Part shown: in pieces, positions 26,601 through 42,701 of the stretch
How positions within the stretch are numbered: position 1 is the stretch's first letter
Layout of the letters: the number at the start of each line of letters is the position of its first letter
Assembly (NCBI GenBank): GCA_016742175.1
Contig: JACVCH010000025.1
Location: 1 to 56,518 of the forward strand
Origin: Rhizobiaceae bacterium
Lineage (GTDB): Bacteria > Pseudomonadota > Alphaproteobacteria > Rhizobiales > Rhizobiaceae
Length of the DNA: 56,518 nt
Direction of reading: 5' to 3'
The notes under the pieces: model-generated
Database searches by the model: none
Seen by the model: the letters and a program-made list of their open reading frames with translations, nothing else
What the model was told of the DNA's origin: nothing
Made by a program: the position numbers and the translations under genes

Positions 26601-26652
26601 GTCTCTCTCCCTGATGTTGCGGACCCGACGGCGCGGGCCGGAATGCTCTTGA

Positions 26653-27741
26653 TCAAGCGGCGAGGCGGATGGCCTCGCCGGTTTCGGCGTCGAAGAAATG
26701 GGCGCGGTCGAGCGCTAGGCCGAGCGTCACATCCTGGCCGTGCTTCAGCCCGGCTTCCGGCGAAAAGCGCCCGGTGAAGCGGGCATCGCCGACGCGAACC
26801 GTCGCCTGCGTTTCCGAACCCAGCGGCTCGACCAGCTCGACCTGGCCGGAAACGGGCGTGCGCGACGGGTCGTCATGGCCGAGGGCGACATGTTCGGGGC
26901 GCAGGCCGATGACGATGTCGCGGCCGGCGCAGGCGGCGAGGTTCGCACCACGCGGGGTGACGTCCATGCCGGACGGCAGGCGGATCACCTGCGCATCGGC
27001 CGAGACGCTGGCGGGCGTCATGTTCATCGGCGGCGCGCCGATGAAGGAGGCGACGAAGCGGTTCGCCGGCCGGTTGTAGACCTCGTCCGGCGTGCCGTAT
27101 TGCTGGAGATGGCCGTCCTTCATGATCGCGATGCGGTCGGCGAGCGTCATCGCCTCGATCTGGTCGTGGGTGACGTAGACGATGGTGGTGCCGAAGCGCT
27201 GGTGCAGTTTCTTGATCTCGACGCGCATCTCGGCGCGAAGCTGGGCGTCGAGATTGGAGAGCGGTTCGTCGAAGAGAAAGACTTTCGGCCGGCGCACGAT
27301 GGCGCGGCCCATGGCGACGCGCTGGCGCTGGCCGCCGGAGAGCTGGCCGGGGCGGCGCTCAAGCAGGTGCTTGATCTGGAGAATGTCGGCGGCCTCGTGG
27401 ACCAGCGTCTCGATCTCGGATTTCGACGTGCCGCGCATCCTGAGGCCGAATCCCATATTGTCGTAGACGCTCTTGTGCGGATAGAGCGCGTAATCCTGGA
27501 AGACCATGGCGATGTCGCGCTCGCGTGGCGGCATGTCGTTGACGACGGTGCCGTCGATGGCGATCTCGCCGCCGGTGATGCCTTCGAGGCCCGCGATCAT
27601 GCGCAGGAGCGTGGACTTGCCGCAGCCGGACGGGCCGACGAGAACGACGAACTCGCCGTCGCGCACCGACAGGTCCACGCCATGCAGCACCTCGACGCGG
27701 CCATATTGCTTGACCACCTGGCGGATTTCGACGCCTGCCAC
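26653..27741 (-). CDS. Carbohydrate ABC importer ATPase, MalK/UgpC type
   Basis: 362 aa. The nucleotide-binding domain has Walker [10 protein letters not shown] (about 36-44), Q-loop [11 protein letters not shown], signature [19 protein letters not shown], Walker [13 protein letters not shown] and switch His in VTHDQ. A C-terminal OB-fold (TOBE) regulatory domain follows ([24 protein letters not shown]). It powers the two permeases downstream. As first gene of the importer operon it is transcribed from the divergent promoter region holding the 27828-27848 inverted repeat. Promiscuous UgpC/MsmK-type ATPases can serve several importers. Confidence 0.93.
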
Positions 27742-27941
27742 GTTTGACCTCCCAGCGATCCTCTTGGCGGGACCATAATCTTATCCGGCGCGCCGTAAAG
27801 GGCGCGGCTCGACCCGGATCATGCCATGTCTTGTAAAAGATACAAGACCTGTTACCGTTCTCGTCATCACGAGGGTGTTTTCCCTTCCTGCGCCGGGATC
27901 GCGGCGCGGTTCAACCTGCCCGAACAGTGCGACACGAGTGC
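27742..27941. promoter_or_regulatory. Divergent promoter region between importer and catabolic operons
   Basis: 200-base gap between the leftward ATPase gene and the rightward PfkB kinase gene. It contains the inverted repeat at 27828-27848 roughly in the middle, positioned to control both directions. I cannot place -35/-10 boxes confidently. Confidence 0.6.
27828..27848. promoter_or_regulatory. Candidate GntR-family operator, site 1
   Basis: Perfect inverted repeat GTCTTGTA-N5-TACAAGAC. A close copy lies at 33558-33578 upstream of the GntR/UTRA gene itself and of suyA. A palindrome shared between an autoregulated regulator promoter and its target promoter is the expected pattern for this regulator family. 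Confidence 0.75.
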
Positions 27942-28847
27942 ATGAGCGACATCTTCTTCATCGGCATCGCGGTCGTGGACTATGTCTTTTCGGTCGACCG
28001 GATGCCGGACCGCGCGGAGAAATACCGGGCCCGCGACATGCAGGTGGTGGGCGGCGGGCTGGCCGCCAATGCGGCCGCGACCGCGGCGCGGCTCGGGCAT
28101 GAGGCGCACATGATCGGGCGTCTCGGCGACGACGTCGTTGCCGACCAGATCATCGACGGGCTCGCGGCCGAGGGGGTTGACTGCGCCGGGCTGCGGCGCT
28201 TTGCGGGGTATCGCTCGCCGCTGTCGTCGGTGTTCGTCGACAAGGCAGGGGAGCGGATGATCGTCAATTACGGCGACTGGTCGATCCCGACGGCGACGGA
28301 CTGGCTGCCGGACGAATTGCCGGCCGGGACGGGCGCGGTGATGGGCGACATTCGCTGGGAGGAGGGCGCGCGGCACCTCTTCGATCTGGCGCGCGCCGCC
28401 GGCCTGCCCGCCGTGCTCGACGTCGATCGGCCGCCCTTCGATGCCAGCCTTCTCGATGCGGCGAGCCATGTCGCGCTGTCGGCGCAGGCGCTGCGCGAGA
28501 TGACCGGAACGGACGACCCGCGGGAAGGGCTGACGCGGCTTCGCGAGCGGTGTTCCGCGCATCTTTCGGTGACGATCGGCGCGGAGGGGACGCTGTTTTT
28601 CGAGGGCGACGCGATTGCGCACGAACCGGCCTTCGCGGTCGAGGTCGTCGACACGCTCGGGGCCGGGGACGTCTGGCACGGCGCGCTGACCGTAGCGCTG
28701 GCCGAGGGGTTGGAAACGCGCGCGGCGATCCGCTTCGCCTCGGCGGCGGCGGCGCTGAAATGCACACGGTTCGGCGGGCGTGCGGGCATTCCGACCCGCG
28801 CCGAACTCGATCAATTTTTGAATGAAAACGAAGGATCGCAGGCATGA
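27942..28847 (+). CDS. PfkB-family sugar kinase, probable 6-deoxy-6-sulfofructose kinase
   Basis: 301 aa ribokinase/PfkB-fold enzyme. Substrate-side motif VVGGGLAANAAATAARLG (about 35-52) and the C-terminal DTLGAGDVWHGAL with catalytic base D243. By context it would phosphorylate sulfofructose at C1 with ATP, the YihV role in sulfoglycolysis; YihV is also a PfkB kinase. It starts the catabolic operon. The stop overlaps the aldolase start (ATGA). The GTG 15 bases upstream is an alternative start; neither has a clear ribosome site. Alternative reading: kinase for another ketose, such as tagatose 6-phosphate or a keto-deoxy sugar. Family is certain, substrate inferred. Confidence 0.82.
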   Translation: MSDIFFIGIAVVDYVFSVDRMPDRAEKYRARDMQVVGGGLAANAAATAARLGHEAHMIGRLGDDVVADQIIDGLAAEGVDCAGLRRFAGYRSPLSSVFVDKAGERMIVNYGDWSIPTATDWLPDELPAGTGAVMGDIRWEEGARHLFDLARAAGLPAVLDVDRPPFDASLLDAASHVALSAQALREMTGTDDPREGLTRLRERCSAHLSVTIGAEGTLFFEGDAIAHEPAFAVEVVDTLGAGDVWHGALTVALAEGLETRAAIRFASAAAALKCTRFGGRAGIPTRAELDQFLNENEGSQA

Positions 28848-29884
28848 CCACACTTTCGGCAGGCAAGCTCTGGGGCCTGCGGCGGCTTGCCGACGAGAAG
28901 GGCCGGTTCAAGATGCTGGCGGTCGACCAGCGGCCGCCGATCAAGAATCCGATCAAGGCGATGCGCGGCACGGCTGAAGCGCCCTATGAGGACGTGGCCG
29001 GGTTCAAGCTGATGCTGGTGGAGGAATTGCAGGCCGAGACGTCCGCCGTGCTGATGGACCCGCATTTCGCCTTGCCGCGCGGGCTCTCCGTGGCCTCGCC
29101 CGCCAAGGGCATGATCGTGACGCTGGAGGATTCGATCTTCCGCGAAACCGAGACGGGGCGGCTTTCGGACGAGATCGACGACTGGTCGGTCGAGAAGATC
29201 AAGCGCGCCGGCGGCGACGCGGTGAAGGTGCTCGCCTGGTATCGGCCGGATGCGGATGCGGCCAATTGCCGGGCGCAGGAGGACTTCGCGAAGCGAATCG
29301 GCGAAGCCTGCCAAGCCTATGACATTCCCTATCTTTTCGAACTTCTCGTCTATCCGCTGCCGGGCGAAGCGGACCAAACGAAGGGCTATGTCGAGATGGC
29401 CGCGAAACAGGCCGACAACGTGCTCGAAAGCGTGCGGCGCTTTGCCGATCCGGCCTTCGGCATCGACATCTTCAAGCTGGAAAGCCCGGTGCCGGCCAAG
29501 GGCATTGGCGACGGGACCGACGCGGCGACGCAGAAGCTGTTCGACGAGATGGGCCGGATCGCGGCGCGTCCGTGGGTGATGCTTTCGGCGGGCGCCGGCA
29601 TGGCGGAATTCGAGGCGGTGTTGAAGCACGCCTATGCCGCCGGTGCGTCGGGCTATCTGGCGGGGCGCGCGATCTGGTCCGAGCCGTTCAAGGCGTTTCC
29701 GGACTGGGACGCGATCCGCTTGGGCCTGCGGCAGACGAGCCTGCCCTATGTGAAGCGGATCAACGCGCTGACGGATGTGAGCGCGACGGCCTGGTTCGAC
29801 ACGCCGCTTTATGGCGGCAAGGCGGAAATCGCCCATTCGGACGCCTCGTTCCGGCATTCATACGTCGGCATGGGAGGCGCGTGA
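28844..29884 (+). CDS. LacD/YihT-type class I aldolase, probable sulfofructose-1-phosphate aldolase
   Basis: 346 aa TIM barrel. The start RFKMLAVDQRPP matches the YihT/LacD N-terminus (FAMLAVDQR). DAVKVLAWYRPD supplies a Lys near 128. The Schiff-base Lys is K211 in DIFKLESPV, corresponding to VLKVEVPV in tagatose-1,6-bisphosphate aldolase. PWVMLSAGAGMAEF and ASGYLAGRAIW form the phosphate site. By context it cleaves sulfofructose 1-phosphate to DHAP and sulfolactaldehyde. An AAGGA site lies inside the kinase gene just upstream; the stop overlaps the next start (TGATG). It could instead act on tagatose bisphosphate, but no lac/tagatose genes are present. Confidence 0.82.
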   Translation: MTTLSAGKLWGLRRLADEKGRFKMLAVDQRPPIKNPIKAMRGTAEAPYEDVAGFKLMLVEELQAETSAVLMDPHFALPRGLSVASPAKGMIVTLEDSIFRETETGRLSDEIDDWSVEKIKRAGGDAVKVLAWYRPDADAANCRAQEDFAKRIGEACQAYDIPYLFELLVYPLPGEADQTKGYVEMAAKQADNVLESVRRFADPAFGIDIFKLESPVPAKGIGDGTDAATQKLFDEMGRIAARPWVMLSAGAGMAEFEAVLKHAYAAGASGYLAGRAIWSEPFKAFPDWDAIRLGLRQTSLPYVKRINALTDVSATAWFDTPLYGGKAEIAHSDASFRHSYVGMGGA

Positions 29885-31281
29885 TGGCGCGGATCGGATT
29901 GCTGCCGCTGGCGCGCGCGACCTTCGACGTCGCCTATGCCGAGGAGCTCTACGGCAGGCTGAAGGCGGGGCTTTCGGCGGCCGGGCATGACCTCGTCGGC
30001 GGCGAGGCGCTGCTGTTCGACGCGCCGGCGACCGAGGCCGCGCTGGCGGCGATGAAGGGCGAGGCGCTCAATTTGCTGCTCATCGTGCAGGTGACGTTCA
30101 CCGACGCGACGATGACGGTGAAGATCGCCGAGGAAGCTGACGCGCCGCTCGCGATCTGGTCGTTTCCCGAGCCGAGGACCGGCGGTCGGCTGCGGCTCAA
30201 TGCGTTTTGCGGGCTCAATCTGGCGGCGCATGCGCTGGGCCTGAACGACGTCAAATTCGGCTGGGTCCATGCCGATCCACTAACGACGGACGTGGGCGCG
30301 CTGGCCGGTGATCTTCTTGCCGGGAGGAGGCAGGCGCAGGCGCTGCCTCTGGCGACGGCGGTGGCCGGCGAAGCTGAGCGGGCCGGGGCGCGGGCGCTTC
30401 TGGCGCGCATCGCGGGCAGCCGGATCGGGCGGATCGGCGAGCGGCCGGACGGGTTCTTCACCTGCGACTACGATCCCGAACGGCTCGAAAGCCTGGCGGG
30501 CGTCTCGGTCGAGCCGATCGCGCTCGATGCGCTGTTCGCGTCCGCGCGCGGTGCTGGCGCGGGGGCCGTCGGCGAAGCGCGCGCGGAGGCCGGCGCGACG
30601 CTCGACGATCTCGACAGTGTCGACCAGGACCAGCTCGACCGGTCGCTGCGCCTGCGGGCGGCGCTGGAGGACGTGCGCGCGAAAGGGGGTTATGCGGCCT
30701 TCGCGGTGCGCTGCTGGCCGGAAATGTTCACGCAATATGGCGGCGCGGTCTGCGGGCCGGTCGGGATGATGGGCGAGCGGCGCGTGCCGTGCGCCTGCGA
30801 GGCGGACGTTCATGGCGCGCTGACGAACCTGTTCCTGCAGGAAATGACCGGCGACGCGGCATTTCTCGTCGATCTCGTCGATCTCGATGCCGAGGACGGC
30901 ACCGGCGTCGTCTGGCATTGCGGGCAGGCGCCGGTCTCGATGCGCGACGAGACCGTGACGGCCAAGGCGGCGATCCATTCCAACCGCAAGATGCCGCTCC
31001 TGTTCGAATTTCCGCTGAAGCCGGGGCGCGTGACCTTCGCGCGGATCAGCCAGGCGCGCGGGCATCCGACGATGGTGATCGCGGGCGGTGAGATGAAACG
31101 GCGGCCGCTCGCCTTTTCCGGTACGGCAGGCGTTCTCGCCTTCGATGCGCCGATCGACACCGTGGCGCGGACGATCGTCGGCGCCGGGCTCGAGCATCAC
31201 TTGAGCCTCGTCTATGGCGACCACCGGCCGGCGCTGCGCGCTCTGGCGGCCGAAATGGGCCTGCCGGTCCTCGAATTCTAA
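29884..31281 (+). CDS. L-fucose-isomerase-like protein, probable sulfoquinovose isomerase
   Basis: 465 aa. The C-terminal half carries the Mn-binding triad of the fucose/arabinose isomerase family: E306 in CACEADVHGALTN, D330 in AAFLVDLVD, and H345 in VVWHCGQAP. The N-terminal half is the matching Rossmann-like substrate domain (LLLIVQVTFTDATM, IWSFPEP). In this operon the missing step between sugar and kinase is an aldose-ketose isomerisation, here sulfoquinovose to sulfofructose. The E. coli enzyme for that step, YihS, belongs to a different (AGE-type) family. As I recall, fucose-isomerase-like replacements are known from actinobacterial sulfoglycolysis. True L-fucose isomerase is about 590 aa, so this is a shorter relative. 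Confidence 0.75.
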   Translation: MARIGLLPLARATFDVAYAEELYGRLKAGLSAAGHDLVGGEALLFDAPATEAALAAMKGEALNLLLIVQVTFTDATMTVKIAEEADAPLAIWSFPEPRTGGRLRLNAFCGLNLAAHALGLNDVKFGWVHADPLTTDVGALAGDLLAGRRQAQALPLATAVAGEAERAGARALLARIAGSRIGRIGERPDGFFTCDYDPERLESLAGVSVEPIALDALFASARGAGAGAVGEARAEAGATLDDLDSVDQDQLDRSLRLRAALEDVRAKGGYAAFAVRCWPEMFTQYGGAVCGPVGMMGERRVPCACEADVHGALTNLFLQEMTGDAAFLVDLVDLDAEDGTGVVWHCGQAPVSMRDETVTAKAAIHSNRKMPLLFEFPLKPGRVTFARISQARGHPTMVIAGGEMKRRPLAFSGTAGVLAFDAPIDTVARTIVGAGLEHHLSLVYGDHRPALRALAAEMGLPVLEF

Positions 31282-31292
31282 AAGGAAATCCC

Positions 31293-32405
31293 ATGTCGAA
31301 ACTGCGCTACGCGATCATCGGTTCGGGCATGATGGGGCAGGAGCATATCCGCAACATCATGCTGTTGCCCGACACGGAAATCGTCGCCGTCAGCGATCCC
31401 GACGAGGGGATGCGCGAGCGCGCGGCAGCGCTTGCCGGCGGCGCGCGGCAGTTCACCGACCATCGCGCGCTGATGGATGCGGGGCTCGCCGACGTGCTCG
31501 TGATCGCCAGTCCGAACCACACGCATCACGACATCCTGCTCGACGTACTGCCGGCGGACCTGCCGATCCTCGTCGAAAAGCCGCTCTGTTCGACGGCGGA
31601 GACGAGCCGGCACATCCTCGCCGCGGCGTCCGGTCGCAAGGCGCCGGTCTGGGTGGCGATGGAATATCGCTACATGCCGCCGATCGCGCGGATGATCGAG
31701 GAAATCCGCGCCGGGACGATCGGCGAGGCGAAGATGCTGACGATCCGCGAGCACCGCTTTCCGTTCCTGCACAAGGTCGGCCACTGGAACCGTTTTGCGG
31801 CGGAGACCGGCGGAACGCTGGTGGAAAAATGCTGCCATTTCTTCGACCTGATGCGGCTCGTCACGCAGTCCGAGCCAGTGCGGGTCTACGCGTCGGGCGC
31901 GCAGGACGTGAACCACAAGGACGAGGCCTATGACGGCCGCGCGCCGGACATTCTGGACAATGCCTATGTGATCGCCGATTTCGCCAACGGCATGCGGGCG
32001 ATGCTTGAACTGTGCATGTTTTCGGAAGGTAGCTGGTTCCAGGAGCACGTGTCGGCGATGGGATCGGCGGGCAAGATCGAGGCCTTCGTGCCGGGACCTG
32101 CACGGTTCTGGCCGGGTGCGGGCGAGCGGGCGGCGGAGATCGTCATCTCGCCGCGCGAGCCGAAGAGCCCGCAGCGGCGGGTGATCGAGGTCGACCCCGA
32201 AATCCTCGCCGCCGGCGACCATCACGGCTCGACCTTCTACCAGCACCGCCTGTTCCGGCAGATGGTGTTCGACGGCGGGGTGCCGGAGGTGTCGCTCGAA
32301 GACGGGCTGCGCTCGGTCGAAATGGGCGCGGCGGCGGAGCTTTCGGCGCGCACGGGGCAGGCGGTGGAGTTCGCGGAAGGCTGGCGCGACCGTCAGGTGG
32401 CGTGA
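31293..32405 (+). CDS. Gfo/Idh/MocA-family protein, candidate NAD-dependent sulfoquinovosidase
   Basis: 370 aa. N-terminal NAD-binding Rossmann fold (YAIIGSGMMGQEHI), VIASPNHTHHDI, the EKPLCSTAE sugar-site Lys, then a C-terminal alpha/beta domain with ETGGTLVEKCCHFFDLMRLV. The usual role of this family is sugar oxidation, but NAD-dependent glycosidases that oxidise C3 transiently are built on this fold, and one such family (GH188, SqgA) cleaves sulfoquinovosides. No classical GH31 sulfoquinovosidase is in the window, and this gene follows the isomerase by 11 nt with an AAAGGAAA site. I favour the glycosidase reading. A simple dehydrogenase remains possible. Confidence 0.72.
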   Translation: MSKLRYAIIGSGMMGQEHIRNIMLLPDTEIVAVSDPDEGMRERAAALAGGARQFTDHRALMDAGLADVLVIASPNHTHHDILLDVLPADLPILVEKPLCSTAETSRHILAAASGRKAPVWVAMEYRYMPPIARMIEEIRAGTIGEAKMLTIREHRFPFLHKVGHWNRFAAETGGTLVEKCCHFFDLMRLVTQSEPVRVYASGAQDVNHKDEAYDGRAPDILDNAYVIADFANGMRAMLELCMFSEGSWFQEHVSAMGSAGKIEAFVPGPARFWPGAGERAAEIVISPREPKSPQRRVIEVDPEILAAGDHHGSTFYQHRLFRQMVFDGGVPEVSLEDGLRSVEMGAAAELSARTGQAVEFAEGWRDRQVA

Positions 32406-32415
32406 TCGCTGCGGT

Positions 32416-32679
32416 CTAGCGCTGCTTGTCCAAGGTGCGGACGTAGGTCTCCAGCACCGCGTTCATGCGGGTCTGGTAGCCTTTGCCCGTCGCCTTGAAG
32501 GCATCGAGGACGGACTTCTTCACGCGCAAGGTCACCTGCTGCGTCGTGTCCGGCTCGACCAGCTTCGCGTTCTTCCAGAAGTTCTCGTCCAGTTCGGGAA
32601 TGTCGCTGGTGTCGATCTGCTCGTCCGGCAGGGCGGCCAGTTGCTCAAGGGTCAATTCCCTGTCGTAGCGCTTCTTCAT
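32416..32679 (-). CDS. BrnA-like antitoxin, no partner toxin seen
   Basis: 87 aa. N-terminal MKKRYDRELTLEQLAALPDEQIDTSDIPELDENFW and C-terminal ribbon-helix-helix (QQVTLRVKKSVLDAFKATGKGYQTRMNAVLETYV) match the BrnA antitoxin family, which binds DNA and neutralises the BrnT RNase. BrnT normally lies immediately upstream in the same operon. Here only 32 nt separate this gene from the GntR stop, and those bases do not encode a BrnT. So it is an orphan antitoxin or a remnant, placed head-to-tail after the Gfo/Idh/MocA gene on the opposite strand. Confidence 0.72.
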   Translation of the reverse strand: MKKRYDRELTLEQLAALPDEQIDTSDIPELDENFWKNAKLVEPDTTQQVTLRVKKSVLDAFKATGKGYQTRMNAVLETYVRTLDKQR

Positions 32680-32711
32680 AGGTGTTCCTCTCAGCGCGTT
32701 CAGGGACAACC

Positions 32712-33479
32712 TTACTTCAAATCCGAAAGATAATGATGCGCTTCCGTCAGACAGCGGGAGATGCGCCATTCGACGATGCGGTCGTCGAGGCCGACGGCGC
32801 GGCGGTCGACTTCGAGGAGGGGCATGCCGAAGGGGCAGTCGAGGTGGCGGGCGTCGTGGGCGTCGGCGCCGACGGCTTTCAACCGTTCGACCGCTCGGGC
32901 GACGGTGACGCCGTAGCGGGTCGAGTAGAGGCCGTAGACATTGTTCGGGATGGTCTCGAAGCGGTCGAGTTCGGGGAAGAGTTCGGCGGGCAGGACGATG
33001 CGCTCGATGATCAGCGGCTTGTCGCCGAGCGTGCGGCGGCGGACGAGCCGCCAGACGGGGTTGCCGGCGGGGATGGCGAGGGCTTCGGCTTCGGCGGCGT
33101 TGGCGGTGCCGCTTTCGAGCGACAGGACCGTCGAATCGGGGAATTCGCGGCTGCCCTCGTCGGGCGTCAGCTTGAAGAACTGGAACAGGATGCGCTCGTC
33201 GTCATAGGAGGTGACGAAGGTGCCGCGCCCCTGCCGGCGCACGAGCAGATTGTCGAGCGTCATCTCGTGCAGGGCCTTGCGCACCGTGCCCTGGGAGACG
33301 TTCAGCTCCTCGGCGATCTGGAACTCGTTCGGGATCGACTGCCCTGCCTGCCAGCGGCCGTCGGCGATGCGCGCGACGAGCAGCGCCTTCACGCGCTTGT
33401 AGAGCGGCTGGTAGCCGAGCTTGCCCGTCCGCTCTGCGCGAAAGCGCGCCTCTTCGAAATCGCCGTTCGTTTCGTCCAT
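32712..33479 (-). CDS. GntR-family (HutC/UTRA) transcriptional regulator of the sulfosugar island
   Basis: 255 aa. The N-terminal winged helix (YQPLYKRVKALLVARIADGRWQAG, then NVSQGTVRKALHEMTLDNLLVRRQGRGTFV) is followed by a UTRA ligand domain (about 95-245). UTRA regulators bind a sugar or sugar phosphate and then leave the operator. It lies divergent to suyAB, with an inverted repeat between (33558-33578) that recurs at 27828-27848. I start at MDETNGDFEEARFR; an in-frame opening to 33575 runs into the operator. Effector unknown; a pathway intermediate such as sulfofructose or sulfofructose phosphate is a reasonable guess. Confidence 0.87.
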   Translation of the reverse strand: MDETNGDFEEARFRAERTGKLGYQPLYKRVKALLVARIADGRWQAGQSIPNEFQIAEELNVSQGTVRKALHEMTLDNLLVRRQGRGTFVTSYDDERILFQFFKLTPDEGSREFPDSTVLSLESGTANAAEAEALAIPAGNPVWRLVRRRTLGDKPLIIERIVLPAELFPELDRFETIPNNVYGLYSTRYGVTVARAVERLKAVGADAHDARHLDCPFGMPLLEVDRRAVGLDDRIVEWRISRCLTEAHHYLSDLK

Positions 33480-33557
33480 CCGTGCGCCGGTCACGCGCTT
33501 CTCCGCGAAATCGATCTTCGTTTGCCGGCGGCGGGTTGTTTGACGATTGCGCGCCCG

Positions 33558-33578
33558 GTCTTTTATCTTATACAAGAG
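33558..33578. promoter_or_regulatory. Candidate GntR-family operator, site 2
   Basis: GTCTTTTA-N5-TACAAGAG, matching site 1 (27828-27848) at 15 of 21 positions, with the differences concentrated in the spacer. It lies between the divergent gntR and suyA genes. Confidence 0.72.
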
Positions 33579-33625
33579 CTATCGCCGCGCCGCCAGCGCG
33601 GGTTTGAGGTTTCGAGGAGGTCAGG

Positions 33626-33913: not shown

Positions 33914-33923
33914 GAGTCGACCC

Positions 33924-35105: not shown

Positions 35106-35108
35106 TGG

Positions 35109-35471: not shown

Positions 35472-35770
35472 CCGAACACCGTGACGAGATCGCTACCAAT
35501 CTCCCGTCTAAATCGCGGCTTCAAACCCTCCCAATCCCGGGTAACGTGGGTCTCGATCCCGAACAGATCCGTCAAATCCAGATGGATGCCGATCAAGTCC
35601 ATCGGAGCGAAACCGGATTGGGGATCGATGTCGACGAGCAAATCGAGATCGCTGTCCTCGCGGTTGTCGCCGCGGGCGCGCGAACCAAACATGCGCAACC
35701 GGCTGACGCCGCGCGCGCGGAGTGTTGGTTCCATCGACTTCAGTCTCAGTATGATTTCGTCACGGTGCAT
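35468..35770 (-). CDS. MNT-type minimal nucleotidyltransferase, antitoxin of the module
   Basis: 100 aa. Pol-beta nucleotidyltransferase fold with the signature GSRARGDNREDSDLDLLVD (catalytic Asp pair) near residues 29-47. It is the antitoxin partner that AMPylates HepT. I start at MHRDEIILRLK (ATG 35770), the normal family N-terminus; a TTG at 35809 would add 13 residues. Flanking sequence to 35850 is unusually AT-rich for this window (run of T), suggesting acquisition. Confidence 0.83.
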   Translation of the reverse strand: MHRDEIILRLKSMEPTLRARGVSRLRMFGSRARGDNREDSDLDLLVDIDPQSGFAPMDLIGIHLDLTDLFGIETHVTRDWEGLKPRFRREIGSDLVTVFG

Positions 35771-35850
35771 CGATCGGCCAAATATTTTTTTTAAGCGGGA
35801 CTTTAGCAAATCTGCGCCTGGTTTGCGAATATCGCAAGGATGCCCTGATA

Positions 35851-36783
35851 ATGCCTGACGTAGTCATCAGCGAATTCATGGACGAGGCGGCGGTCGCGCG
35901 GCTGACGGCGCGGTTCGACGTGCTCTACGATCCGAAGCTGGTCGACGCGCCGGCGAGACTGGCGGAGGCTGTCGGGTCTGCGCGGGCGCTGATCGTGCGC
36001 AACCGGACGCAGGTGCGCGGCGCGCTGCTGGAAAGTGCCGCGAAGCTGGAAGTCGTCGGGCGGCTCGGCGTCGGGCTCGACAATATCGACATGGACGCGT
36101 GTTCGGTGCGCGGGATCGCGGTGCATCCGGCGACGGGCGCGAACAACCTCGCGGTCGCCGAATATGTCATCGCCAATGCGATGCTGCTCCTGCGCCGCGC
36201 GTATACTTCGAGCGAGGCGGTGGCGGCGGGGGAGTGGCCGCGCCAGAGGATGATGGGGCGCGAGCTTGCCGGCAAGACGCTGGGGCTGATCGGCTTCGGC
36301 GCCATTGCGCAGGAAGTCGCGTGGCGGGCGCATGATTACGGCATGAGGCTCGTCGCCTACGATCCGCATCTCGACGCCGGCCATCCCGGCTGGCAGATCG
36401 CGCGCAATGTGTCGCTCGACGGGTTGATGGAGTTGTCCGACGTCGTCTCGCTTCACGTGCCGCTGACCGAGGCGACGCGGCACATGATCGACGCCCGGCG
36501 GCTCTCGCTGATGAAGCGCGACGCGATCCTGATCAACGCCGCGCGCGGCGGCGTGGTCGACGAGGCGGCGCTGGCCGATGCGCTGCGTGCTGGAACGCTG
36601 GGCGGCGCGGCGCTCGACGTATTCGAGACCGAGCCGCTGACGGCGGCGGACGGCGCGAAGTTCAAGGGGCTTTCCAATATCGTCCTGACGCCGCATATCG
36701 CGGGGGTGACGGAAGAATCGAATGTGCGCGTCTCCGACATGATCGCGGATCTCGTGATCGCGCATCTGGAGAACAAGGCATGA
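35851..36783 (+). CDS. slcC: D-2-hydroxyacid dehydrogenase, probable (S)-sulfolactate dehydrogenase SlcC
   Basis: 310 aa of the D-isomer-specific 2-hydroxyacid dehydrogenase/PGDH family. NAD-binding GFGAIAQ, catalytic Arg in NAARGGVVDE, Glu in VFETEPL, His in LTPHIAGVTEES. In sulfolactate degraders SlcC oxidises (S)-sulfolactate to sulfopyruvate with NAD. The adjacent ComC-type gene then reduces sulfopyruvate to the (R) form that SuyAB accepts. The stop overlaps the comC start by 4 nt. Without context it would be called a phosphoglycerate-dehydrogenase-like enzyme. Confidence 0.75.
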   Translation: MPDVVISEFMDEAAVARLTARFDVLYDPKLVDAPARLAEAVGSARALIVRNRTQVRGALLESAAKLEVVGRLGVGLDNIDMDACSVRGIAVHPATGANNLAVAEYVIANAMLLLRRAYTSSEAVAAGEWPRQRMMGRELAGKTLGLIGFGAIAQEVAWRAHDYGMRLVAYDPHLDAGHPGWQIARNVSLDGLMELSDVVSLHVPLTEATRHMIDARRLSLMKRDAILINAARGGVVDEAALADALRAGTLGGAALDVFETEPLTAADGAKFKGLSNIVLTPHIAGVTEESNVRVSDMIADLVIAHLENKA

Positions 36784-37784
36784 GCGAACGGGTGCTGACG
36801 GCAGGCGCAGCGCATGCGCTGGTCGCCGCCGCGCTGACGGCGTCGGACACGTCGATCGAGAATGCCGATGCGGTCGCGCGGGCGCTGGTCGGGGCCGAAC
36901 TGGTCGGGCAGGGCGGGCACGGATTGCGGCGCGTGCCGGCTTATGCGGCGCAGGCGCGCGCGGGCAAGGTCAAGGGCCATGCGGTGCCCCGCGCCGAGCG
37001 CGTGCGCCCGGGCGCAGTGAAGATCGATGCCGGGTTCGGATTTGCCTATCCGGCACTGGAACTCGCCAGTGCCGAACTTGCCGAAATGGTGCCGGGGCAG
37101 GGGATCGCGATGGCCGGCATAAGGCGCTCGCACCATGCCGGTGTCGCGGGGCTCGCGGTGGAGAAACTCGCTGCGCGCGGGCTGGTAGCGCTGCTGTTCG
37201 CCAACGCGCCGGCGGCGATGGCGCCGTGGGGCGGGCGTCGGCCGCTCTTCGGAACGGACCCGATCGCCTTTGCCTGCCCGACCGAGGGCGGCGATCCGAT
37301 CGTCGTCGACGTGTCGCTCTCCAAGGTCGCGCGCGGCAAGATCATGGCAGCGAACCAGAAGGGCGAGACCATTCCCGAGGGCTGGGCGCTCGATGCGGAC
37401 GGCAATGCGACGACCGACGCCAAGGCGGCGCTGGCCGGCACGATGATCCCGCTGGGCGATGCCAAGGGGACGGCGCTGGCGCTGATGGTCGAGCTTCTGT
37501 GCGCCGGGCTGACCGCGGCGAATTACGGCTACGAGCAGACGTCGTTCTTCGACGCGGCGGGCGATCCGCCGGGCACCGGGCAGGCGATCATCGCCATCGA
37601 TCCGGGCGTCTTCGGGAGCCGTGCACTGGCGCGATTTGCGGAGATGGCGGAGCAGATCACGGGGAGCGACGGCGCGCGCGTGCCGGGGCATCGGCGCATC
37701 GCGCTGCGGGCAAAACTGACCGCCGAGGGTATCCCGGTCGATGGGGCGCTGATCGACGAAATCAGCGCGATCGGTGCCGCATGA
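36780..37784 (+). CDS. comC: Malate/L-lactate dehydrogenase family, probable (R)-sulfolactate dehydrogenase ComC
   Basis: 334 aa of the Ldh2/MDG-type fold, unrelated to classical LDH. It has the GGHGLRRVPAY entrance motif, the family SHHAGVAGLAVEKLA catalytic-His region and GTDPIAFACPTEGGDPIVVD for NAD(P). ComC reduces sulfopyruvate to (R)-sulfolactate; paired with SlcC it inverts sulfolactate. It overlaps the mutarotase start (ATGA). Other family members reduce ureidoglycolate or delta-1-piperideine-2-carboxylate; the pairing with SlcC and SuyAB homologues decides. Confidence 0.74.
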   Translation: MSERVLTAGAAHALVAAALTASDTSIENADAVARALVGAELVGQGGHGLRRVPAYAAQARAGKVKGHAVPRAERVRPGAVKIDAGFGFAYPALELASAELAEMVPGQGIAMAGIRRSHHAGVAGLAVEKLAARGLVALLFANAPAAMAPWGGRRPLFGTDPIAFACPTEGGDPIVVDVSLSKVARGKIMAANQKGETIPEGWALDADGNATTDAKAALAGTMIPLGDAKGTALALMVELLCAGLTAANYGYEQTSFFDAAGDPPGTGQAIIAIDPGVFGSRALARFAEMAEQITGSDGARVPGHRRIALRAKLTAEGIPVDGALIDEISAIGAA

Positions 37785-38788
37785 GCATCGAGGAATTCGG
37801 CCGCACCGCGGATGGCGAGACCGTGCGCCGTGTGACCATCGCCGGCGGCGGGCTGACGGTGCATGTGCTGACATGGGGCGCGGTGGTGCAGGATCTGCGC
37901 CTTGCCGGCCACGAGCCGCCGCTGGTGCTCGGCTTCGAACGCTTCGAGGACTACCCCGTCCGCTCGCCCTTTTTCGGCGCGATCGCGGGACGCTATGCCA
38001 ATCGCATCCGTCACGGACGGTTCGACCTCGACGGCCGGACGGTTCAGGTCGATACCAATTTCCTCGGCAAGCATCTCTTGCATGGCGGCATCAAGGGGAT
38101 CGGCAAGCGGGTCTGGACGATTGCCGAGACGGGCGCGGATTTCGTGCGGCTGACGCTGGCGGATCGTAACGGCGAGATGGGGTTTCCCGGAAATCTCGAC
38201 ATCGAATGCCTCTACCGCGTCGAGGACGGCGCGCTGAAAGTGGGGCTGACGGCGCGCACCGACGCGCCGACGCTCTGCAATCTCGCGCATCACTCCTATT
38301 TCAATCTCGACGATGGCGGGACGGGCGACGTGCTCGGCCATCGGTTGACGATCGACGGCGACCGCTATGTGCCGGTCGACGAGGAATGGATACCGACCGG
38401 CGGCACGCTCGACGTGGCCGGAACGCCGTTCGATTTTCGCAAGATGCGCGAGATCGCGTGCTCCGAAGACGGCGCGCAGTTCGTCTACGACCACAATTGG
38501 TGCCTTGTCGATGGCAGGCGTTCGATGAAGCGAGCGGTTCGGCTCGAAGGGGCACGGTCCGGTGTTGCGATGGAGGTCTGGACGACGGAGCCGGGCGTTC
38601 AGTTCTATGCCGGGCACAAGCTTGCCGTCGACGGCGGGCTGGGCGGGCGCAACTATGGCGCATTTGCCGGGCTCTGCCTCGAACCGCAAATCTGGCCGGA
38701 TGCGCCCAATAATGCGGACTTTCCGCAGGCGGTGCTACGGCCTGACGAGGTCTACGAGCAGGCGACGGAGTATCGGTTTTCGATTTAG
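37781..38788 (+). CDS. Aldose 1-epimerase family, probable sulfoquinovose mutarotase
   Basis: 335-aa galactose-mutarotase fold. Sugar-binding NRIRHGRF, catalytic acid H171 in LAHHSYFNLDD and base E302 in CLEPQIWPDAPNN are intact. In sulfosugar operons the YihR-type mutarotase equilibrates the alpha anomer released by the glycosidase to the beta anomer used by the isomerase. It is the third gene of the slcC-comC unit, coupled by a 4-nt overlap. Substrate inferred. Confidence 0.82.
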   Translation: MSIEEFGRTADGETVRRVTIAGGGLTVHVLTWGAVVQDLRLAGHEPPLVLGFERFEDYPVRSPFFGAIAGRYANRIRHGRFDLDGRTVQVDTNFLGKHLLHGGIKGIGKRVWTIAETGADFVRLTLADRNGEMGFPGNLDIECLYRVEDGALKVGLTARTDAPTLCNLAHHSYFNLDDGGTGDVLGHRLTIDGDRYVPVDEEWIPTGGTLDVAGTPFDFRKMREIACSEDGAQFVYDHNWCLVDGRRSMKRAVRLEGARSGVAMEVWTTEPGVQFYAGHKLAVDGGLGGRNYGAFAGLCLEPQIWPDAPNNADFPQAVLRPDEVYEQATEYRFSI

Positions 38789-38800
38789 CGGTGCATCGGC

Positions 38801-38834
38801 TTTCGATTTGCATTAGAAGAAGCGAAAACGAAAG
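38801..38834. promoter_or_regulatory. Candidate GlpR operator upstream of glpR
   Basis: One TTTCG (38801) and two inverted copies within GCGAAAACGAAAG (38822-38834), 13 nt before the regulator start. The motif is the same as in the array at 39631-39667 and suggests autoregulation. Confidence 0.5.
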
Positions 38835-38846
38835 CAGACGGCACCC

Positions 38847-39611
38847 ATGTTCCTTCTTCCGCGCCATGCCGAAATCGTGCAACTCGCCAAGGACAGCGGG
38901 CGCGTCCTCGTCGACGATCTCGCTGTTCGGTTCGACGTCTCGCCGCAGACGATCCGCAAGGATCTGAACGAGCTCTGCGACAAGCGGCTGCTCGCGCGCA
39001 TCCATGGCGGGGCGGTGATCCCGTCGGGCATCGAGAACATGGAATACGAGGCGCGGCGGCGGATCGCGGCCGACGAGAAGCAGGGGATCGGCCGTGCGGC
39101 GGCGGCGCTGGTTCCCGACAATGCCTCACTCTTCATCAATATCGGCACCACGACCGAGGCCGTCAGCGAGGCGCTGGGCGACCACAAGGGGCTGATGGTC
39201 ATCACAAACAACATCAACGTCGCCAACCGGATGCGGGTGCAGCCGTCGATCGAAGTGGTGATCGCGGGCGGCGTGGTGCGCGGCTCGGACGGGGGCGTGG
39301 TGGGCGAGGCGGCGGTCGACTTCTTTCGCCAGTTTAAGGCCGACTATGCGGTGATTGGCGCCTCGGCGATCGACGAAGATGGGGCGCTGCTCGATTTCGA
39401 CTTTCGCGAAGTGAAGGTCGCACAGGCGATCATCGCCAATGCGCGGCACGTGATCCTCGTCGCCGATTCGACCAAGTTCGAGCGCACGGCGCCGGTGCGG
39501 ATCGCGCATCTGTCGCAGGTGTCGAGCTTCGTCACCGACCGCTGCCCGAGCGCGGAGATCAGGCGCGTGTGCAAGGAAGCGGGCGTGCAGTTGGTGGAAA
39601 CTGCGCGCTAA
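38847..39611 (+). CDS. glpR: DeoR-family repressor, probable GlpR
   Basis: 254 aa. N-terminal winged helix (RHAEIVQLAKDSGRVLVDDLAVRFDVSPQTIRKDLNELCDKRLLARIHGGA), the exact DeoR family signature, and a C-terminal sugar-phosphate isomerase-like effector domain (SLFINIGTTTEAVSEAL). It sits directly before glpD-glpK and represses glycerol use until glycerol 3-phosphate binds. TTTCG direct repeats flank it on both sides. It might also be the regulator that senses the phosphorylated sugar from the neighbouring island. Confidence 0.82.
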   Translation: MFLLPRHAEIVQLAKDSGRVLVDDLAVRFDVSPQTIRKDLNELCDKRLLARIHGGAVIPSGIENMEYEARRRIAADEKQGIGRAAAALVPDNASLFINIGTTTEAVSEALGDHKGLMVITNNINVANRMRVQPSIEVVIAGGVVRGSDGGVVGEAAVDFFRQFKADYAVIGASAIDEDGALLDFDFREVKVAQAIIANARHVILVADSTKFERTAPVRIAHLSQVSSFVTDRCPSAEIRRVCKEAGVQLVETAR

Positions 39612-39630
39612 GGTTCAGCCGGCGCTTGGA

Positions 39631-39667
39631 TTTCGCACGAGTTTCGCTTAGATTTCGTTTGATTTCG
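39631..39667. promoter_or_regulatory. Phased TTTCG repeats before glpD, candidate GlpR binding array
   Basis: Four direct copies of TTTCG at 39631, 39642, 39653 and 39663, spaced 11, 11 and 10 bp (one helical turn). DeoR-family proteins use TTTCG-type repeats, so a GlpR oligomer could bind one face of the DNA here, between its own gene and glpD. Confidence 0.68.
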
Positions 39668-39683
39668 AAATCGGATAAATGAC

Positions 39684-41189
39684 GTGCCTGACGAAGCGAT
39701 CCACGACATCTTCATCATCGGCGGCGGCATCAATGGCTGCGGCATCGCGCGGGACGCCGTCGGGCGCGGCTATTCGGTGTTCCTGGCCGAGATGAACGAC
39801 CTTGCGAGCGGCACCTCGTCCTGGTCGACCAAGCTGATCCATGGCGGGTTGCGCTATCTCGAGCACTACGAGTTCCGGCTGGTGCGTGAGGCGCTGGAGG
39901 AGCGCGAGGTTCTTTGGAAGAACGCGCCGCACATCATCTGGCCCATGCGCTTCGTGCTGCCGCACCACCGGGGCCTGCGCCCGGCCTGGCTCTTGCGGCT
40001 CGGGCTGTTCCTCTACGACCATATCGGCGGGCGAAAGCTCTTGCCGAAGACCCGCGTTCTCGACATGAAGTCCGATCCGGCCGGACGGCCGCTGAAGCCG
40101 ATCTTTTCCAAGGCATTCGAGTATTCGGATTGCGGCGTCGACGATGCGCGTCTGGTCGTGCTCAACGCGCGCGACGCGGCCGACAAGGGCGCGGTGATCC
40201 GCACGCGCACCAAGGTCGTTTCGGCAAAACGCGAAGCCGATGTCTGGTCGGTGGAGATCGAGGACCAAACGACGGGCCGGCGCGAGACGGTGCGGGCGCG
40301 GCTCCTGGTCAATGCGGGCGGGCCGTGGGTCGACCACGTGCTGGCCGAGACGGTGGGTCGCCGCGACGTTCACAATGTGCGGCTCGTGCAGGGCAGCCAT
40401 ATCGTCGTAAAGAAGAAATTCGACGATCCGCGCGCCTATTTCTTCCAGAATGCGGACGGGCGGATCATCTTCGCCATTCCCTATCACGACGATTTCACCA
40501 TGATCGGGACGACTGACCAGGACTATCGGGGCGACCCGAAGGACGTCGCGATCAGCGAGGCGGAGACGGATTACCTGATCGCTTCGGCGAGCGAATATTT
40601 CGCCGATCCGGTGCGCCGCGAGGACATCGTCTGGACCTTCTCGGGCGTGCGTCCGCTCTATGACGACGGCGCGTCGAAGGCGCAGGAGGCGACGCGCGAC
40701 TACGTGCTGAAGGCCGACGCGGACGGCGCGCCGCTGATCAACATCTTTGGCGGCAAGATCACCACCTATCGGCGGCTCGCCGAATCCATGCTGGCGAAGA
40801 TCGAAGGGCTGATCGGCGCCAAGGGGCGGCCGTGGACGAAAAAGGCGACGCTGCCCGGCGGCGATTTCGCGGTCGGCACGTTCGACGAGACCGTTCGCAA
40901 GCTACGGGGCGACTTTCCGTTCCTGGCGGAGGCCCATGCGCGGCGGCTGACGCGGCTTTACGGCACGCGGGCGCGTTCGATCCTCGGCTCTGCGGCGTCG
41001 CTCGACGATCTCGGCCGCCATTTCGGCGCCGACCTCTACGAGGCCGAGATCTGCTATCTGATGGCGCACGAATGGGCGATGACCGCCGAGGACGTGCTCT
41101 GGCGGCGCACCAAGCGCGGGCTGGTGGTGTCGAGGGAAGACGCCGCGCGGCTCGAGACCTTCATGGGCGGGCTCGCGGCGGCGGCCTGA
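39684..41189 (+). CDS. glpD: Aerobic glycerol-3-phosphate dehydrogenase GlpD
   Basis: 501-aa membrane-associated FAD enzyme oxidising glycerol 3-phosphate to DHAP and feeding quinones. N-terminal FAD motif IFIIGGGINGCGIARDA; substrate-side SSWSTKLIHGGLRYLEHYEFRLVREAL; FSGVRPLYDDG and NIFGGKITTYRRLAESML near the end. Start is GTG at 39684 with only a weak upstream site. Its DHAP product meets the DHAP from the sulfofructose-phosphate aldolase. glpK follows after 24 nt. Confidence 0.93.
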   Translation: MPDEAIHDIFIIGGGINGCGIARDAVGRGYSVFLAEMNDLASGTSSWSTKLIHGGLRYLEHYEFRLVREALEEREVLWKNAPHIIWPMRFVLPHHRGLRPAWLLRLGLFLYDHIGGRKLLPKTRVLDMKSDPAGRPLKPIFSKAFEYSDCGVDDARLVVLNARDAADKGAVIRTRTKVVSAKREADVWSVEIEDQTTGRRETVRARLLVNAGGPWVDHVLAETVGRRDVHNVRLVQGSHIVVKKKFDDPRAYFFQNADGRIIFAIPYHDDFTMIGTTDQDYRGDPKDVAISEAETDYLIASASEYFADPVRREDIVWTFSGVRPLYDDGASKAQEATRDYVLKADADGAPLINIFGGKITTYRRLAESMLAKIEGLIGAKGRPWTKKATLPGGDFAVGTFDETVRKLRGDFPFLAEAHARRLTRLYGTRARSILGSAASLDDLGRHFGADLYEAEICYLMAHEWAMTAEDVLWRRTKRGLVVSREDAARLETFMGGLAAAA

Positions 41190-41213
41190 CAGACCACAAT
41201 CGGGGAGGATTTC

Positions 41214-42701
41214 ATGGGCGGGTTCGTTCTCGCGATCGACCAGGGCACGACGTCGAGCCGGGCGATCGTCTTCGACGGCGACATGAAGGTCGTCGGCGTC
41301 GGGCAGCAGGAATTCACGCAGCACTTTCCGCAATCGGGCTGGGTCGAGCACGATGCAGACGAGATCTGGGAGAGCGTCGTCGCGGTGGTGAAGACGGCGC
41401 TGGGCAAGGCGGGAATCGGCGCGTCCGAAGTGGCGGCGATCGGCATCACCAACCAGCGCGAGACGGTCGTCGTCTGGGACAAGGCGACGGGCAAGCCCAT
41501 CCACAACGCCATCGTCTGGCAGGATCGGCGCACGGCCGCGATCTGCGACGAGATGAAGGAGAATGGGCTCGCGGAGGTCTTCTCCGCGAAGACGGGTCTG
41601 CTGCTCGACCCCTATTTTTCCGGCACGAAGCTCGCCTGGCTGCTCGACAATGTCGACGGCGCGCGCGCCCGGGCCGAGGCCGGCGAGCTTCTTGCCGGCA
41701 CGATCGACGCCTTCCTGATTTGGAAGCTGACGGGCGGCGGCGCGCACGTCACCGACGCGACCAACGCCTCGCGCACGCTGCTCTTCAACATCGAGACGAA
41801 TGCGTGGGACGCCGAACTCGGCGAACTTCTCAACGTGCCGCTGTCGATGCTGCCCGAGGTTAAAGACAGCGCGGCCGATTTCGGTGTGACGGAGGCGGCA
41901 CTGTTCGGCGCGGCGATCCCGATCCTCGGCGTTGCCGGCGACCAGCAGGCGGCGACGATCGGCCAGGCCTGCTTCCAGCCGGGCATGATGAAATCCACCT
42001 ACGGCACGGGCTGCTTCGCCGTGCTCAACACCGACGAGACGCTGGTGCGCTCGAAGAACCGGCTGCTGACGACCATCGCCTATCGCCTCGACGGGCGGAC
42101 GACCTATGCGCTGGAAGGCTCGATCTTCGTCGCCGGCGCGGCGGTGCAATGGCTGCGCGACGGGATCAAGGTCATCGGCAAGGCCGAGGAAAGCGGGCGG
42201 CTTGCGGCCGAGGCGGACGAGACGCAGCAGGTCTATCTGGTGCCGGCCTTCGTCGGGCTCGGCGCGCCGCACTGGGACGCGGATGCGCGCGGCGCGATCT
42301 TCGGCCTGACGCGCAGCACCGGCCCGGCGGAATTTGCCCGCGCCGCGCTCGAATCCGTCGCCTTCCAGACGCGCGATCTGCTCGACGCGATGAAGAAGGA
42401 CTGGGCGGATGCGAGCGGCCAGACCGTTTTGAGGGTCGATGGCGGCATGGTCGCGTCCGACTGGACGATGCAGCGCCTCGCCGACATCCTCGACGCGCCG
42501 GTCGACCGGCCGATAATCCTGGAGACGACGGCGCTGGGGGCCGCGTGGCTGGCCGGGTCGCGCGCGGGCGTGTGGCCGGGGATGGAGGATTTTTCGAAGG
42601 CGTGGAAGCTCGATCGCCGGTTCGAGCCGGCGATGGGGGACGCATTGCGCGAGACCAAGCTGGCCGGGTGGCGGGATGCGGTTCGGCGGACGTTGAGCTA
42701 G
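41214..42701 (+). CDS. glpK: Glycerol kinase GlpK
   Basis: 495-aa FGGY-family kinase. The ATP/phosphate loop [52 protein letters not shown] and the C-terminal [20 protein letters not shown] are all conserved. It phosphorylates glycerol for GlpD. A GGGGAGG site precedes the ATG. The TAG stop shares CTAG with the convergent btuD stop. In this neighbourhood it can use glycerol cut from sulfoquinovosyl glycerol as well as free glycerol. Confidence 0.94.

Follow-up and report, generated by a model that had tools for sequence, protein, structure and literature searches.

A predicted island for the breakdown of sulfoquinovosyl glycerol to pyruvate and sulfite in a Rhizobiaceae bacterium

Sulfoglycolytic breakdown is commonly portrayed as a process in two tiers, with one species excreting sulfolactate or 2,3-dihydroxypropane-1-sulfonate (DHPS) and another one freeing the sulfur. 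The present account concerns a stretch of DNA of 56,518 nucleotides from a Rhizobiaceae bacterium (the window: contig JACVCH010000025.1 of assembly GCA_016742175.1, positions 1 to 56,518, which is the entire contig G000:C4 of a 4.3-Mb genome in 34 contigs), and an island of about 19 kb therein which is predicted to serve the import of sulfoquinovosyl glycerol (SQGro) and the use of both tiers by a single cell. Production of sulfoquinovose is put at approximately ten billion tons per year (PMC10755693), and the presence of both halves within one bacterium was called unusual (PMC12421959); here and below, statements on published systems refer to parts of the papers cited.

The sulfo-Embden-Meyerhof-Parnas (sulfo-EMP) pathways of E. 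coli and Arthrobacter (PMC12890257, PMC8873060, PMC10755693) have an isomerase, a sulfofructose kinase and a class I aldolase in common with the island and, for Arthrobacter, also SqgA and the formation of sulfolactate; in the island, however, an SqvD/SftI-type protein would stand in for YihS and a LacD-type protein for YihT, and sulfolactate would be taken on to pyruvate and sulfite. For Actinobacteria bacterium IMCC26103 (PMC11465081, 2024) a cluster was described which likewise holds a GH188 enzyme, fucose isomerase, sulfofructose kinase, sulfofructose phosphate aldolase, a D-3-phosphoglycerate dehydrogenase, both SuyAB subunits, ATP-binding cassette (ABC) transporters and a regulator. This cluster, described there at the level of genes, differs in being actinobacterial, in enclosing its sulfolactaldehyde dehydrogenase and in a GH188 tyrosine where the island has leucine; ComC, a mutarotase and glpDK are not named in the part of the paper concerned. 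The tandem sulfofucose Entner-Doudoroff (ED) system of Paracoccus wurundjeri (PMC12421959) shares SlcC, ComC, SuyA, SuyB and an ABC importer, whereas sulfofucose is degraded there by an oxidative ED route as the upper pathway; that cluster has genes for PfkB and a PF01791 aldolase, which were not induced, and none for an aldose-ketose isomerase, and GH188 is not named in the sections covered. Sulfoglycolysis and SuyAB genes also share one cluster in the sulfo-transaldolase systems of Thermotogae and Chloroflexi, where a transaldolase replaces kinase and aldolase (PMC9594981). Chromohalobacter salexigens, finally, places SlcC and ComC ahead of SuyAB, in a breakdown of sulfolactate with no sugar pathway (as in PMC9594981, PMC12421959).

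Against this background, an initial annotation, made from the letters of the window, had taken an EMP-type route joined to C-S lyase release of sulfite as new for the group. This stands for Hyphomicrobiales insofar as no published account was found for the order in the portions of the literature covered (a figure of PMC10755693 does list a Mesorhizobium GH188 cluster), whereas similar combinations had been published for Actinobacteria and for Thermotogae/Chloroflexi. New here, as predicted from sequence, would be a hybrid core of YihV-type kinase, LacD-type aldolase, SqvD-type isomerase and GH188, together with a SmoF importer and a racemising SuyAB module, in Hyphomicrobiales.

All genes of the initial annotation are present as intact open reading frames (ORFs), and all named genes lie between 23,423 and 42,701. 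The interval given originally, 26,653-42,701, was right as to its genes; it started at the importer ATPase and thereby omitted three of the four importer genes (23,423-27,741). Since these reach beyond that start, the left limit was moved to 23,423, and the corrected island spans 23,423-42,701 (about 19 kb); a GntR/UTRA regulator and a HepT/MNT pair, absent from the original gene list, belong to this interval as well. From the left, the order is a minus-strand importer, kinase-aldolase-isomerase-GH188, gntR (minus), suyA-suyB, HepT/nucleotidyltransferase (minus), slcC-comC-mutarotase and deoR-glpD-glpK. The kinase-to-GH188 run is tight, with intergenic distances of -4, -1 and 11 bp, suyA and suyB are 10 bp apart, and slcC, comC and the mutarotase gene are spaced by -4 and -4 bp. 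The start of SuyB was placed at 33,924, within a longer mechanical ORF (33,717-35,105). GC content by codon position is of the coding type in the genes for which it was computed. The features are as follows.

23,423-24,253, minus: ABC importer permease, MalG-type (NCBIfam permease families; adjoins the binding protein in loci L049, L051, L055)
24,255-25,196, minus: ABC importer permease (71-96% identity in relatives carrying this importer)
25,341-26,600, minus: predicted periplasmic SQGro-binding protein, SmoF-like (top Protein Data Bank (PDB) match SmoF 7nbz)
26,653-27,741, minus: ABC importer ATPase (Walker A and signature motifs by eye; with the importer in L049, L051, L055)
27,942-28,847, plus: predicted 6-deoxy-6-sulfofructose kinase, YihV-like PfkB (top PDB match YihV 7ag6)
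28,844-29,884, plus: putative class I sulfofructose-1-phosphate aldolase, LacD/PRK12858 type (NF009498, PF01791)
29,884-31,281, plus: putative sulfoquinovose isomerase, SqvD/SftI-like, L-fucose/L-arabinose isomerase fold (NF048012 below cut-off; fold)
31,293-32,405, plus: predicted GH188 NAD-dependent sulfoquinovosidase SqgA (ArSqgA 8qc3; contact residues)
32,712-33,575, minus: GntR/UTRA regulator, divergent from suyA (Pfam GntR, UTRA; adjoins suyA in L117, L141)
33,626-33,913, plus: SuyA, predicted (R)-sulfolactate sulfo-lyase small subunit, 95 amino acids (homologues beside suyB in relatives)
33,924-35,105, plus: SuyB, predicted (R)-sulfolactate sulfo-lyase large subunit (tree group 100/100)
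35,109-35,492, minus: HepT-like ribonuclease gene, start codon not fixed (PF01934, E 3e-24)
35,468-35,770, minus: MNT-type nucleotidyltransferase gene, HepT partner (PF01909, E 1.3e-8)
35,851-36,783, plus: SlcC-like putative (S)-sulfolactate dehydrogenase (2-hydroxyacid dehydrogenase domains; 31/45 full-flank loci, defined below)
36,780-37,784, plus: ComC-like putative (R)-sulfolactate dehydrogenase (best NCBIfam model NF040650, below cut-off)
37,781-38,788, plus: aldose 1-epimerase, candidate sulfoquinovose mutarotase (PF01263, E 3e-71)
38,847-39,611, plus: DeoR-family regulator, GlpR-like (PF00455, PF08220)
39,684-41,189, plus: glycerol-3-phosphate dehydrogenase GlpD, named by sequence reading (sole match in genome)
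41,214-42,701, plus: glycerol kinase GlpK, named by sequence reading (only close match in genome)

It is quite probable that this island, together with one enzyme encoded outside it, would provide for the complete use of SQGro by one cell. This estimate draws on the family placement of most enzymes, on the contact residues of SqgA and on linkage across genera, from which all reactions and the substrate are predicted, as is the dehydrogenase acting on sulfolactaldehyde. SQGro would be imported by the SmoF-type ABC importer and cleaved to glycerol and sulfoquinovose by the GH188 enzyme SqgA, whose NAD-dependent oxidoreductive mechanism would start at C3. The mutarotase and the SqvD/SftI-type isomerase would convert sulfoquinovose to sulfofructose, the YihV-type kinase would phosphorylate it, and the LacD-type class I aldolase would split the product into dihydroxyacetone phosphate (DHAP) and (S)-sulfolactaldehyde. 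Oxidation of the latter to (S)-sulfolactate would fall to a GabD/SlaB-type dehydrogenase, with a candidate on another contig (G000:C2:117532-118962); SlcC and ComC would then convert the (S)-sulfolactate via sulfopyruvate into (R)-sulfolactate, the presumed substrate of SuyAB, with pyruvate and sulfite as products. Sulfite could be cleared by candidate oxidising and exporting proteins which the genome encodes outside the island, and glycerol would be taken by GlpK and GlpD. The initial annotation had proposed the same course from SQGro import to pyruvate and sulfite, and the sequences support it well; the dehydrogenase step, however, lies outside the island, and the attribute "complete" given to the latter has to be withdrawn. 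If the route is true, many alphaproteobacteria could mineralise both carbon and sulfur of the sulfolipid alone, without an oxygenase route.

The most specific matches are found at the entry to the pathway. Compared with solved structures, the binding protein matches SmoF (7nbz) at E 7e-121, with the runner-up at 4e-64, and its prediction as a SmoF-type SQGro binder is well supported. Three matches of SqgA range from E 8e-122 to 8e-126 and include the published ArSqgA and FlSqgA (8qc3 E 7.8e-126, 8qc2 6e-124); the best oxidoreductase beyond these three, 4hkt, follows at 1.1e-18. In ArSqgA the sulfonate is contacted by R166, L170 and K172, and the sugar by K107, Y136, E189, H193 and H321 (PMC10755693). 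All eight positions are identical in the island protein, as aligned with a numbering offset derived by hand, and its sulfonate site keeps the usual leucine, not the tyrosine variant of PMC11465081. Assignment of this Gfo/Idh/MocA protein as a plain sugar dehydrogenase was rejected on account of the strength of the GH188 match and the contact residues; a GH188 sulfoquinovosidase, predicted to act on sulfoquinovose glycosides, is well supported. The mutarotase shares only 23% identity with YihR.

The kinase shows 42% identity to E. coli YihV, its top PDB match (7ag6, E 2.6e-63), and retains YihV K27, N109 and R138, which we take to be the sulfonate contacts. Among nine aligned kinases of cluster relatives, K27 and R138 occur in 9/9 and N109 in 7/9, while neither of two PfkB paralogues of the source genome retains all three.

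Concerning the C-S lyase, SuyB is 92% identical to a plasmid protein of Sinorhizobium mexicanum, 81% to Paracoccus proteins and 69% to that of Cupriavidus pinatubonensis, which was taken as SuyB because it lies beside hpsN and hpsO; in the 25 listed records out of 314, Rhodococcus follows at 60%, and then identity drops to 39%. The sole NCBIfam and PDB matches of SuyB are to galactarate dehydratase (GarD 6u7l, E 3.4e-36), and branching of SuyAB with altronate or galactarate dehydratases had been named at the outset as the result that would speak against a sulfo-lyase. In a tree of 40 proteins, 33 of SuyB type, including the C. pinatubonensis protein, grouped with 100/100 support apart from 7 UxaA-type proteins, which made up the altronate side of the tree (E. 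coli UxaA and GarD themselves were left out), and by this position an altronate or galactarate dehydratase was rejected. SuyA gives a weak SAF match under the cut-off; its homologues adjoin suyB in relatives at 69-98% identity. A separate small-subunit gene is not diagnostic, since one precedes the large-subunit gene also in the outgroup loci L151 and L152. In sum, SuyAB is well supported as a predicted (R)-sulfolactate sulfo-lyase, and the genes of both dehydrogenases, SlcC and ComC, lie near suyAB in the island and in relatives.

The association of these genes was followed in two samples. In 397 genomes of the order, with limits of E 1e-30 for the isomerase, 1e-80 for SqgA and 1e-120 for SuyB, the three proteins were encoded in 31, 37 and 81 genomes, respectively. 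SuyB accompanied any isomerase in 17/31 genomes, compared with 64/366 of the others (Fisher 1e-5), and a close isomerase, i.e. above a 48% line which was set after seeing the matches and leaves out 11 at 45-46% identity, in 17/20 compared with 64/377 (3e-10). As genomes are not independent, the count by genus, with SuyB encoded in 13 of the 14 that have a close isomerase, is the safer figure. SqgA was found with a close isomerase in 15/20 genomes as opposed to 22/377, and the 11 genomes with divergent isomerases gave neither SuyB nor SqgA at the limits mentioned. The isomerase and SuyB lie near each other in 6 of the 17 genomes (G000, G093, G230, G287, G354, G378), and this sharing of genomes within the order lessens the claim of novelty further, even if the genes are mostly apart. 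The isomerase of the island shares 92-95% identity with those of two Aliihoeflea strains and about 90% with that of Mesorhizobium sp. YIM 152430; four genomes of the source genus were among the 20 relatives drawn.

The second sample was taken from GTDB contigs, where 491 places encode isomerase relatives; the best 80 were analysed, so that it leans to near relatives, and several organisms are shared with the first sample. Forty-five of the 80, termed full-flank loci, have at least 9.9 kb on both sides of the isomerase. Within about 10 kb of it, these 45 encode the kinase in 41 cases, the aldolase in 40, SqgA in 39, SlcC in 31, the mutarotase in 25, a SlaB-type dehydrogenase in 17, SuyB in 12 and ComC in 10, a co-occurrence that points to clustering beyond chance. 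The aldolase gene directly precedes that of the isomerase in 63/73 scorable loci, and sqgA directly follows it in 64/76. A SmoF-type binding protein is encoded near the isomerase in just 4/45, and the SmoF importer is thus a minority choice among related loci; ahead of the kinase gene, L100 and L139 have frames which resemble, by eye, genes of tripartite ATP-independent periplasmic (TRAP) type transporters.

A series of observations, set out in this and the following two paragraphs, weighs against the proposed route. As to linkage, these are the late choice of the 48% line, the 5/20 close-isomerase genomes without SqgA, and the position of SuyB, which lies far off on the same contig in 3/17 genomes and on another contig in 8/17, although some of the latter cases may be assembly breaks. 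As to the enzymes of the predicted pathway, certainty is lowest for the isomerase and the aldolase. The sole NCBIfam match of the isomerase, the SftI model NF048012, reaches 243 bits where the cut-off is 700, Pfam Fucose_iso_C falls slightly under its cut-off, and an alignment profile run against PDB sequences gave no match at E 1. Its AlphaFold model (predicted local distance difference test, pLDDT, 94) agrees best with L-arabinose isomerase in Foldseek, at a template modelling (TM) score of 0.59, with L-fucose isomerases also matched; this agreement is moderate, with TM about 0.5-0.6 and a large root-mean-square deviation. A YihS-type isomerase is not indicated, as BLAST of YihS against the island protein gave no match at E 1, and a putative SqvD/SftI-type protein occupies the place of YihS in the sulfo-EMP set. 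The AraA/FucI fold is consistent with the FucI homology reported for SqvD, and hybrid clusters mixing sulfo-EMP and sulfo-EMP2 enzymes are on record (PMC9594981, section 9). The aldolase belongs to PF01791 and, with 322.8 bits at a cut-off of 184, to the LacD subfamily PRK12858 (NF009498); it is closer to tagatose-bisphosphate aldolases than to YihT, with which it shares 28% identity and the Lys and Arg at YihT positions 193 (K193) and 253 (R253).

For the oxidation of sulfolactaldehyde no dehydrogenase gene was found within the island, and the enzyme must be encoded elsewhere in the genome. A SlaB/GabD-type gene follows comC directly in G287 and G354 (L054, L055) and in the Nitratireductor loci L117 and L134. 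The identity of the candidate on contig C2 to these genes amounts to 82-83% for the Nitratireductor pair and to 66-68% for G287 and G354, while the candidate's five nearest compared paralogues reach at most 46%. Its top match, however, is the E. coli succinate-semialdehyde dehydrogenase 3jz4 (655 bits), ahead of 8c54, the sulfolactaldehyde dehydrogenase of R. leguminosarum (567 bits), and being of GabD type by this match, the candidate sulfolactaldehyde dehydrogenase could equally be a housekeeping succinate-semialdehyde dehydrogenase. R. leguminosarum performs sulfolactaldehyde oxidation with a GabD, in which a pair of arginines was proposed to bind the sulfonate (PMC10599462). The C2 candidate has such a pair at the expected spacing, by eye; the equivalent arginines bind substrate in human succinate-semialdehyde dehydrogenase. 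For Paracoccus the sulfolactaldehyde dehydrogenase was left unidentified (PMC12421959), a step for which the present system provides a testable candidate.

In the sulfolactate half, the best NCBIfam model of ComC, the L-sulfolactate dehydrogenase NF040650, scores 185.9 bits at a cut-off of 500, and SlcC matches general 2-hydroxyacid dehydrogenase models only, all below cut-off and none of them specific for sulfolactate. The 745-bp gap between suyB and slcC is filled by the antisense HepT/MNT pair (35,109-35,770), with a GC content of 0.57 as against 0.62 and 0.70 on its flanks. In the Aliihoeflea sister loci L069 and L071, just a few bp separate suyB and slcC, with no HepT/MNT genes between them, and the pair is probably an insert outside the pathway. 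In Mesorhizobium sp. YIM 152430 (L070), suyB and most of suyA were lost between gntR and slcC, leaving a SuyA-like remnant of 41 amino acids (L070, 13468-13671). Insert and loss taken together, members of this genus may be able to do without the sulfolactate half, or it may be changing among them.

These weaknesses leave room for other readings. An unlikely one has the pathway of this strain end at sulfolactate, to be excreted as in Arthrobacter, with the HepT/MNT insert or the absent dehydrogenase blocking further breakdown. The insert of some 0.75 kb, which lies antisense between suyB and slcC, the lack of SlaB in the island and the loss of suyB in L070 would fit such an arrest; on the other hand, every frame is intact, and the genome holds a close SlaB/GabD homologue as well as a second suyAB copy with a SuyB 99% identical to the first. 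It is very improbable that the same enzymes act on sulfofucose (6-deoxy-6-sulfo-D-galactose) instead, whereby the isomerase would form sulfotagatose, the kinase sulfotagatose 1-phosphate, and the LacD-type aldolase DHAP and sulfolactaldehyde, to be followed by SlcC, ComC and SuyAB. An aldolase of LacD and not YihT type, the fucose/arabinose-isomerase fold, and the 92% identity of SuyB to that of S. mexicanum, a listed candidate sulfofucose user (PMC12421959), would be in line with this substrate. Sulfoquinovose is favoured by the full contact set in SqgA, the SmoF-like binding protein and the SftI-matching isomerase, as well as by the place of sqgA directly after the isomerase gene in 64/76 loci. 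No island protein scanned with Pfam fell into the SfcH, SfcD, SfcF or SfcE families, which were not searched genome-wide. An EMP route for sulfofucose was weighed in PMC12421959 and found against in that paper's own strain.

Scarcely credible is a cluster for a hexose of the tagatose or fucose type that merely adjoins a sulfolactate operon and has no part in sulfoglycolysis. The subfamily name of the aldolase, the isomerase fold, the model scores below cut-off and the many genomes with SuyB away from the isomerase could be read in this manner, yet GH188 and SmoF are matched strongly and specifically, the kinase keeps K27, N109 and R138 where the two paralogues of its own genome do not keep them all, and of the 14 genera that have a close isomerase all but one encode SuyB. 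The breakdown of SQGro to pyruvate and sulfite is retained as the preferred reading.

The related loci point to a second module for removal of the sulfonate. ComD and ComE accompany SlcC in 12 of the 80 loci, all of Rhodobacterales by record title, and 11 of these 12 also have a SlaB-type gene. The 80 loci divide into 16 with SuyB, 12 with ComDE, none with both and 52 with neither; for the 45 full-flank loci the figures are 12, 7, 0 and 26. The gene order SlaB-SlcC-ComD is seen in L100 (13480-19870) and L139 (13459-16932), with ComE next in L139; in L100 a molybdopterin oxidoreductase comes after these genes, SoeA-like by inference. ComD of both loci and ComE of L139 pass the curated cut-offs for sulfopyruvate decarboxylase. 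Xsc was above cut-off in 7/7 ComDE genomes searched (of the 12), compared with 0/14 control genomes. Since SuyB is encoded elsewhere in 2 of these 7 genomes, the two modules exclude each other per locus and not per genome. It appears rather likely that alphaproteobacteria have a modular route by which one cell could mineralise sulfoquinovose fully, with one sulfo-EMP core joined to SlcC-ComC-SuyAB or, in Rhodobacterales, to SlcC-ComD-ComE and then Xsc, which would take sulfoacetaldehyde onward, yielding acetyl phosphate. ComDE and Xsc are named in a figure legend giving an overview of DHPS breakdown (PMC12330013). A search by title and abstract, in mostly non-subscription literature, found no coupling of sulfoquinovose breakdown to ComDE in one cluster, and this second coupling of the sulfoglycolytic core, to sulfopyruvate decarboxylase, was thus without an earlier description in the literature searched.

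Turning to the fate of sulfite, the second suyAB of the source genome lies on contig C9 (G000:C9:90978-92156; L157, 15680-17156), in a region which also encodes Xsc above cut-off, a TauE-type exporter, a PF03601 protein and, by eye, TRAP-type transporter genes. The 99% identity of the two SuyB proteins suggests that suyAB was recently copied between the loci. On contig C2, a molybdopterin oxidoreductase shares 62% identity with the one encoded close to comDE in L100; no NCBIfam model matched it at cut-off, and as an inferred name it may be listed as a candidate SoeA-type sulfite dehydrogenase.

With respect to glycerol, GlpD is the single match in the genome, and other matches of GlpK do not exceed 34% identity. 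Of the 45 full-flank loci, 4 encode GlpD and 1 encodes GlpK, the GlpK count being low in part because the stretches end there. A glpDK set dedicated to SQGro is unsupported, with no second GlpD and no close second GlpK in the genome; being the sole and sole close matches, respectively, the two genes look like a general glycerol operon placed next door.

Relatives of the isomerase occur in other surroundings as well. When plasmids were searched with it, 10 records were found, the best of them a cluster from Zymomonas that includes a class II aldolase. This apparent sulfoquinovose cluster on the Zymomonas mobilis plasmid pZZM402 (L005, 128-11361) encodes, besides the class II aldolase, a mutarotase, an SqvD-like isomerase (38%), a GH188-like protein (48%), major facilitator superfamily and TonB transporters, and a SlaB-like dehydrogenase. 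In L057-L061, all from one genus (g76), a divergent isomerase (42-46%) is accompanied, at a distance of several kb, by a class II aldolase like that of Zymomonas; neither SqgA (E 1e-80) nor SuyB (E 1e-120) was detected in these genomes.

To the right of the island, the minus strand carries an apparent iron or cofactor uptake set (42,698-47,449), with an ABC ATPase, a permease (by eye), a PF01497 binding protein and a TonB-dependent receptor. Further on, a peptide-type ABC importer (48,019-56,347), its binding protein assigned by Pfam and its permeases and ATPase by eye, adjoins an MttB-family (PF06253) methyltransferase, possibly with a role for a methylated amine.

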